Position numbers and translations under genes: made by a program. The notes beneath the pieces were generated by a model. That model was not told the DNA's origin, did not search any database, and saw nothing but the letters and a program-made list of their open reading frames with translations. DNA of 64,000 nt from Haloplanus sp. HW8-1 (GTDB taxonomy: Archaea > Halobacteriota > Halobacteria > Halobacteriales > Haloferacaceae): the NCBI RefSeq assembly GCF_023703795.1, contig NZ_CP098518.1, forward strand, positions 2,666,001 to 2,730,000, written 5' to 3'. Shown one piece after another: positions 7,214-43,095 of the stretch; within the stretch, counting starts at the first letter, position 1, and each line of letters begins with the position of its first letter.

Positions 7214-7292
7214 CCGTCCGGACCTCCGCGGGCGCGGATCGGGGACGGCGGCCGAGCGCGTCCACTCCGAAGGGCCTGTGTCGCCGGTCCCA

Positions 7293-7432
7293 TTCGATGT
7301 GCCTTTCCGCTTCCATGGCGTTTCTCCCCGTATGAACGCTGATTCGCCTGCAGTCCCGGTACGAACCGAGCCACAGCCGTTGGTGAGTGTCCGATGACGG
7401 GGCGAGACGAGTACTACAACTACTCGGCCCGA
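7293..7432 (+). pseudogene. Remnant of the rlmE upstream region and N-terminus (left border of the island)
   Basis: This stretch aligns without gaps to 42956-43095 at a constant offset of 35,663 (about 97 of 140 positions identical by hand count). It includes the upstream block CGTATGAACGC and the rlmE start: here MTGRDEYYNYS, versus MTDRDKYYNRS in the intact gene. The reading frame from 7394 hits a TAG after 19 residues. A 21-codon upstream ORF (7332-7397) overlapping the ATG is preserved in both copies. It is a decayed, same-orientation duplicate of the rlmE 5' end; DNA to the left is GC-rich core, DNA to the right is island. Confidence 0.75.
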
Positions 7433-7462
7433 TCTGTTGTGACTACTAATTAGCCCCCGAGC

Positions 7463-7861
7463 CATTCGTCTTTAGCTAAGAAGAAAAGGGCGTGACAGCA
7501 GCGACTTATTGAGGCGTCGCTTGAACAGGGTGTGATAGAACAGTTCAGACGCCTGTTTATCTCTGATTCACTCAATACAAGAGCGGAACTAACCAATTAG
7601 TGTAAAGCTCCGACACCAAGAATGGCACCACACTCCGGGCACTCGTAGGCCTGCCCATTTCCTGACACAATTTCATCATTCACATTCAACGACGTTGCAA
7701 TCTCGTTTCCGCAATCCGGACAGTGCGTCATGCTACTTCTCTCTCAGTGTCGTACACTTAATTAGGGAACGATGTAGGTTATAAACCTACAATTTGAGTA
7801 GAAAAGCTGTCTCGATAAGCCGCTACCGTCTTCCAATTCCTCACTTAGCTAAAGACGTATG
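7463..7861. mobile_element. MITE-like transposable element, 399 bp, carrying a zinc-ribbon gene
   Basis: Left end CATTCGTCTTTAGCTAAG (7463-7480) and right end, read on the other strand, CATACGTCTTTAGCTAAG (7861-7844) form an 18-bp terminal inverted repeat with one mismatch. Immediately outside both ends is the same 10-mer GCCCCCGAGC (7453-7462 and 7862-7871), a target-site duplication. No transposase is encoded, so mobilisation would need one supplied in trans. The interior holds one convincing ORF, the 44-residue zinc-ribbon protein at 7597-7731. The transposase family is not recognised. Confidence 0.75.
7597..7731 (-). CDS. 44-residue zinc-ribbon protein
   Basis: Starts ATG at 7731, reads MTHCPDCGNEIATS at the N-terminus and has a second knuckle YECPECGAILG near the C-terminus. 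Two C-P-x-C knuckles about 24 residues apart are the complete metal site of a rubredoxin-like zinc ribbon, with almost nothing else. Such haloarchaeal micro-proteins are common but of unknown role (nucleic-acid or protein binding is usual). It lies wholly inside a MITE-like element, so it may be a passenger. TTAATTAAG around 7758-7765 would serve as TATA box. Confidence 0.7.
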   Translation of the reverse strand: MTHCPDCGNEIATSLNVNDEIVSGNGQAYECPECGAILGVGALH

Positions 7862-7903
7862 GCCCCCGAGCACTCGGAGGCAGTATCGGACGCCCCGAGT
7901 ACG

Positions 7904-42791: not shown

Positions 42792-42955
42792 ACAGAGTAA
42801 CTATCATTAACTCCTAAAAATATCGTCGGTGGGACGTGTCCCGATTACAGCCACAGTCAAAGTCACTATTTCACTATAAACACTCAACTGGCTACTACGA
42901 GGGGATACATACCGGTCATCAGGCTACACATTAGGAGTCGTCCTCAGGGTATCAA

Positions 42956-43095
42956 TCCGATGTCCCTTTCCGCTTTGACGGCGTCCCTTCTCGTATGAAC
43001 GCGAATTCGCCGGCAGTTCCTGCGCGGAACATGTCAAGGAATTTGGTGAGGTACGTATGACAGACCGGGATAAGTACTACAACCGCTCGAAACAG
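42956..43095 (+). repeat. Right border repeat: rlmE upstream region and N-terminal codons
   Basis: Ungapped match to 7293-7432. The left edge coincides with the change from AT-rich island DNA to GC-rich core. Longest identical blocks: CCTTTCCGCTT (42965), CGTATGAACGC (42992) and GTACTACAAC (43074). Together the two copies look like diverged attachment-site halves. Confidence 0.7.
42995..43060 (+). CDS. 21-residue upstream ORF coupled to rlmE
   Basis: ATG 42995 gives MNANSPAVPARNMSRNLVRYV and its TGA overlaps the rlmE ATG (ATGA, 43057-43060). The decayed left copy keeps the same ORF, 22 codons long and also ending in ATGA (MNADSPAVPVRTEPQPLVSVR). It could be a leader peptide controlling rlmE translation. 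Evidence is position and conservation between two copies only. Confidence 0.35.
   Translation: MNANSPAVPARNMSRNLVRYV

Follow-up and report, generated by a model that had tools for sequence, protein, structure and literature searches.

Within the 64,000-nucleotide stretch of the Haloplanus sp. HW8-1 genome analysed here (the window), positions 7463-7861 are occupied by a 399-bp element that has no transposase gene and a single 44-codon gene inside. The element is very probably a non-autonomous cassette of the ISH2 type, in which two inverted copies of the transposase-proximal (L) end of the insertion sequence ISH8 enclose a zinc-ribbon passenger, and which would be mobilised in trans by the ISH8 transposase. 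Its features, in window coordinates, are the following:

7453..7462, no strand: left 10-bp target-site duplication, GCCCCCGAGC; full ISH8 copies also have perfect 10-bp duplications
7463..7480, plus strand: left terminal inverted repeat, CATTCGTCTTTAGCTAAG, identical to both ISH8C ends and found exactly in 92 of 392 genomes
7463..7518, plus strand: left end, about 56 bp of homology to the ISH8 transposase-proximal (L) end (query 1-56, at most 86% identity; L score)
7597..7731, minus strand: zinc-ribbon micro-protein gene, 44 codons and a stop, with two CPxC knuckles (ORF and family profile)
7773..7791, minus strand: 19-bp palindrome, TGTAGGTTTATAACCTACA, with 8-bp arms and a TATA-like core, a putative promoter/operator
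7801..7861, minus strand: right end, about 61 bp of homology to the ISH8 L end (query 339-399; L score)
7844..7861, minus strand: right terminal inverted repeat, CATACGTCTTTAGCTAAG, from the inverted-repeat search
7862..7871, no strand: right 10-bp target-site duplication, GCCCCCGAGC, a perfect repeat of the left copy

The 18-bp terminal inverted repeats differ by one mismatch, and the 20-nt arms at 7461-7480 and 7844-7863, which include 2 nt of the duplication, are 95% complementary; the element ends were the only inverted-repeat pairs reported in the 700-bp neighbourhood. The GC content of the element is 0.459, as against 0.618 for the window. The cargo gene is an intact minus-strand ORF (7731..7597), the sole credible ORF of the element, with the product MTHCPDCGNEIATSLNVNDEIVSGNGQAYECPECGAILGVGALH. 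On these points the initial annotation was accurate, having described a transposase-less 399-bp element with 18-bp inverted repeats, a 10-bp target duplication and a complete 44-residue double-CPxC gene, whereas its views on the parent of the element, on the lack of ORFs in archaeal MITEs, and on the element as a vehicle for the gene require revision, as described below.

An exact search of the 392 order genomes detected the 18-mer end in 92; the reversed control pattern was absent from all of them, placing the ends beyond chance. When the 399-bp DNA was searched against 170 genomes of the family and against plasmids, matches were essentially to the two ends only, and the same target sites were often matched by both ends, on opposite strands. 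On pNRC100 the match falls at the beginning of ISH8C, which bears the annotation of an IS4-like ISH8C-family transposase element, and both ISH8C termini have the sequence of the left repeat. The full-length ISH8 copies that were fetched are 1402-1403 bp in length, with perfect 10-bp duplications at 9 distinct loci, in agreement with the published description of the ISH8 subgroup as having CAT ends, 10-bp direct repeats and a length of 1400-1800 bp (PMC2266710). ISH8 and ISH8C agree with the element in their outermost 18 bp, in the L-end sequence over about 60 bp and in the 10-bp duplication, but differ from it in their length, in encoding a 424-residue transposase, and in having distinct L and R ends. 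Judging by its ends, the element has a recognisable parent in the ISH8 subgroup of the IS4-family insertion sequences, although the initial annotation had considered the parent transposase unrecognised.

Other ISH8-ended elements were also observed. One of 223 bp (G216:C1:1479023-1479245; L119 124-346) is flanked by a perfect 10-bp duplication, CAAACATACC, and contains no evident gene. Two ISH8 copies (L117 308-1978 and L118 304-2777) are enlarged to 1671 and 2474 bp, also with perfect 10-bp duplications, and have a transposase frame split by an insert. ISH8 end pairs with spacings of 1.7 and 2.5 kb, seen in other genomes, were for this reason rejected as passenger cassettes.

The cargo belongs to a haloarchaeal family of proteins of about 45 residues (profile A1), characterised by two CPxC-type knuckles and an EC..CGA.LG motif. 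In a single-sequence search, 26 of the 170 family genomes gave a match, the element's own genome included, the others at 34-52% identity; the closest relative, in genome G260, is 62-64% identical over about 40 residues (E 2.1e-10), such that identities to relatives range overall from 34 to 64%. In a ten-protein alignment, M1, H3 and all four cysteines are invariant and the EC..CGA.LG motif is mostly so. The cargo fits the family over its full length, retaining the four cysteines, a GAILG motif and every family-invariant position; its profile match has an E value of 1.5e-22, the profile alignment including the cargo itself. At E <= 1e-4 the profile detects members in 81 of the 392 order genomes. 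No ISH8-type ends were found near the relatives' genes in the fetched flanks (about 1.5-3 kb, for the best-scoring loci), that of the element itself excepted. Since these homologous loci are without ISH8-type ends, the family is an ordinary chromosomal one of haloarchaea that is not confined to ISH8-ended elements, and the member in the element was picked up by, or diverged on, an ISH8-ended cassette. With a family that is widespread without such ends, the element is not the general vehicle of the gene, and the gene is not found only inside elements of this kind.

With respect to known protein families, only sub-threshold zinc-ribbon matches to the cargo were obtained in Pfam and NCBIfam; for instance, it scores 20.6 bits against the HVO_2753 family (NF041909), for which the curated cut-off is 80. 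The cargo resembles the haloarchaeal C(P)xCG proteins HVO_2753 and HVO_0758 in having fewer than 70 residues and two CPxCG-type motifs, but falls below the cut-off of every named HVO model listed, and differs in its location on an ISH8-ended element. In Haloferax, deletion of C(P)xCG micro-protein genes often alters biofilm formation, swarming or growth, and 9 of the 14 such proteins tested bind zinc (PMC6562870, PMC11241148), making a function and zinc binding plausible for the cargo by analogy. A viral origin of the zinc ribbon was rejected, the one weak match lying inside a 704-codon frame.

The palindrome lies 41 bp upstream of the cargo AUG, with its TATA-like core at promoter distance. 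At up to 2 mismatches, 7773-7791 is its only site in the genome, a single occurrence that suits a private operator of the cargo gene. An operator shared with host genes was rejected, there being no other genomic site, and a search for RNA families within the element found none.

The closest known element is ISH2, a MITE moved in trans by the ISH8 transposase (PMC10264941). The copy in pNRC100 (L116 91-611) is 521 bp in length, with CATTCGTCTTTAGTTAAG ends, a perfect 10-bp duplication, CTGGGGAAGC, and a 67-codon ORF located between palindromic GTGCAC blocks. The ORF product resembles a ribbon-helix-helix protein by eye, and a Pfam search gave no match at E <= 0.01. Among the MITEs of Haloquadratum, only the ISH2-type HqIRS32 has an ORF that is likely to encode a protein (PMC3119063), and the ISH2 ORF is expressed, according to a statement in the same paper that cites Klein et al. 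2007. Thus ISH2, which depends on the same transposase system, is a clear exception to the premise that archaeal MITEs usually lack a functional ORF (PMC10264941, PMC3119063).

Both ISH2 of Halobacterium salinarum and the HqIRS32-type element of Haloquadratum walsbyi are like the 399-bp element in having ISH8-like ends and no transposase, and ISH2 likewise combines a perfect 10-bp duplication with a single micro-protein ORF in its interior and a palindrome upstream. ISH2 differs from it in size, in being multicopy, and in encoding an unrelated 67-residue product. Beyond the outer 18 bp, the left end of ISH2 is weakly L-like and the right end is not, an arrangement that is not clearly L-L. The 399-bp element can be grouped with the ISH8-mobilised, ISH2-type MITEs by its ISH8-related ends, 10-bp duplication and lack of a transposase gene, but it falls outside the ISH2 sequence family: the ORFs are unrelated by reading, the interior has no relatives at the DNA level, and the full-length matches of the plasmid search did not include ISH2.

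The element also conforms to a mobile insertion cassette, with insertion sequence ends surrounding an intact passenger and no transposase. In this it is, by description, like MIC231 of the Bacillus cereus group (IS4 family), whose cassettes are mobilised in trans; MIC231 is bacterial and has other cargo. According to references given in PMC2266710, MIC231 are passenger-bearing, transposase-less cassettes of the sister IS231 subgroup.

The 3.84-Mb genome contains one copy of the element. In the same genome no match to the ISH8 transposase was found, in a search where seven of seven other genomes were positive, and the 18-bp end recurs at one site with 1 mismatch and two sites with 3 mismatches. 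The 1-mismatch site (C1:1358455; G000, L063 1501) is an isolated remnant of an ISH8 L end, about 60 bp long, on the host chromosome, and is evidence of the former presence of ISH8 there. Because the genome is without an ISH8 transposase and holds only one ISH8 end relic, the element is probably stranded, and moving now would need an incoming ISH8.

A second occurrence of the whole 399 bp was not found in the genome itself or in the family genomes. Against the 170 family genomes and plasmids only the ends were matched, phages gave no match, and no paired ends at element-like spacing were present in viral contigs or GTDB representatives. The 282-bp interior had no relative in the 392 order genomes, where only patches of 20-56 bp were matched, at E 8e-4 or worse. 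Multiple copies are usual for MITEs, though not strictly defining, and the 399-bp element is single. Since a second copy and an interior relative are absent from the 392 genomes, it is the one perfect duplication that supports mobility of the element as a unit.

It is conceivable, though somewhat improbable, that the element is an ordinary ISH8-derived MITE and its zinc-ribbon ORF an accident: a non-functional, neutral and decaying passenger, whose absence would leave the movement of the element unchanged. A single copy in a host without transposase and the divergence of the cargo from all relatives (at most 64% identity) would fit such a passenger, and the 223-bp element with its perfect duplication shows that even shorter ISH8-ended forms are possible. 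However, the ORF is intact at full length with all family-invariant positions kept, a TATA-like palindrome is present at promoter distance, and the ISH2 ORF provides a precedent for expression, as stated in PMC3119063.

A different question is how the ends came to surround the cargo. Many MITEs derived from insertion sequences retain one L and one R end, and the element might by this precedent have arisen by deletion from one ISH8 copy, with both ends kept and the interior swapped for the zinc-ribbon gene; the outer 18 bp, being the same for L and R, would be compatible with such an origin. The bases internal to the terminal 18 bp were scored against 16 oriented ISH8 copies, with 500 shuffles. 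Against the L ends, the left end of the element had a mean score of 19.0 (shuffle maximum 7.5) and the right end 16.6 (shuffle maximum 6.2), whereas against the R ends the scores were 2.7 (shuffle maximum 9.3) and 5.4 (shuffle maximum 8.2), respectively. With scores far above shuffles for L and not for R, both ends come from the transposase-proximal end of ISH8, over about 60 bp, and the right subterminal sequence makes a deletion derivative very improbable. Counted from the right end of the element, the cargo AUG is at base 131, and in ISH8C the transposase AUG is at base 116, so that the cargo takes the place of the lost transposase gene and is oriented as that gene was. Equally little credence can be given to chance capture, in which two separate ISH8 L-end relics flank a resident zinc-ribbon gene that never transposed as a unit: an isolated L-end relic does exist elsewhere in the genome and relatives of the zinc ribbon abound in haloarchaea, but a perfect 10-bp duplication right at both outer ends needs one insertion event, and the GC content is lower inside the element.

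The insertion site offers a further observation. The left flank is similar to the beginning of a gene that, by reading, encodes an rlmE-like methyltransferase and has further occurrences in the window and the genus. Positions 7292-7452 and 42955-43089 of the window are alike, covering the promoter and opening codons of an rlmE/FtsJ-like gene, of which an intact copy starts near 43057. Left of the element, the rlmE-like frame begins with an AUG at 7394 and stops after 19 codons (MTGRDEYYNYSARSVVTTN). Matches to this flank were found in five genomes of the genus (G070, G071, G072, G075 and G077), with the same truncated form in G070 and G071. From these sequences, the gene start looks like a repeated, conserved remnant. 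An empty site was looked for in the genus and not found, as no relative's match continues past the insertion point.

For the preferred interpretation of a trans-mobilised cassette, the following mechanism can be envisaged. A DDE transposase of the ISH8 subgroup (IS4 family), acting in trans, would bind the two ends, excise the cassette and reinsert it with a 10-bp duplication. The passenger would be read from its own promoter, with the TATA-like core located inside the 19-bp palindrome, a plausible operator. The cassette may have originated, for example, from two inverted ISH8 copies collapsing around a zinc-ribbon gene.

We read the element as an ISH2-like cassette, analogous to MIC231 of Bacillus; the kind is already known, and the variant is new. 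More tentatively, and in our view rather unlikely, ISH8 ends may act as a general micro-gene shuttle of haloarchaea, with cassettes that carry small, self-regulated genes with palindromic promoters to the benefit of the element or the host, a proposal that rests on two examples. If true, such shuttle cassettes, carrying the 67-residue ORF of ISH2 and the zinc ribbon, would be the archaeal counterpart of the Bacillus MIC231. The L-L layout hints that cassettes may originate from inverted copies of one insertion sequence end, and not by simple internal deletion. The zinc ribbon would be a second, unrelated passenger for ISH8-mobilised transposase-less elements, suggesting that ISH2 does not stand alone and that very small genes can be carried from genome to genome by ISH8.
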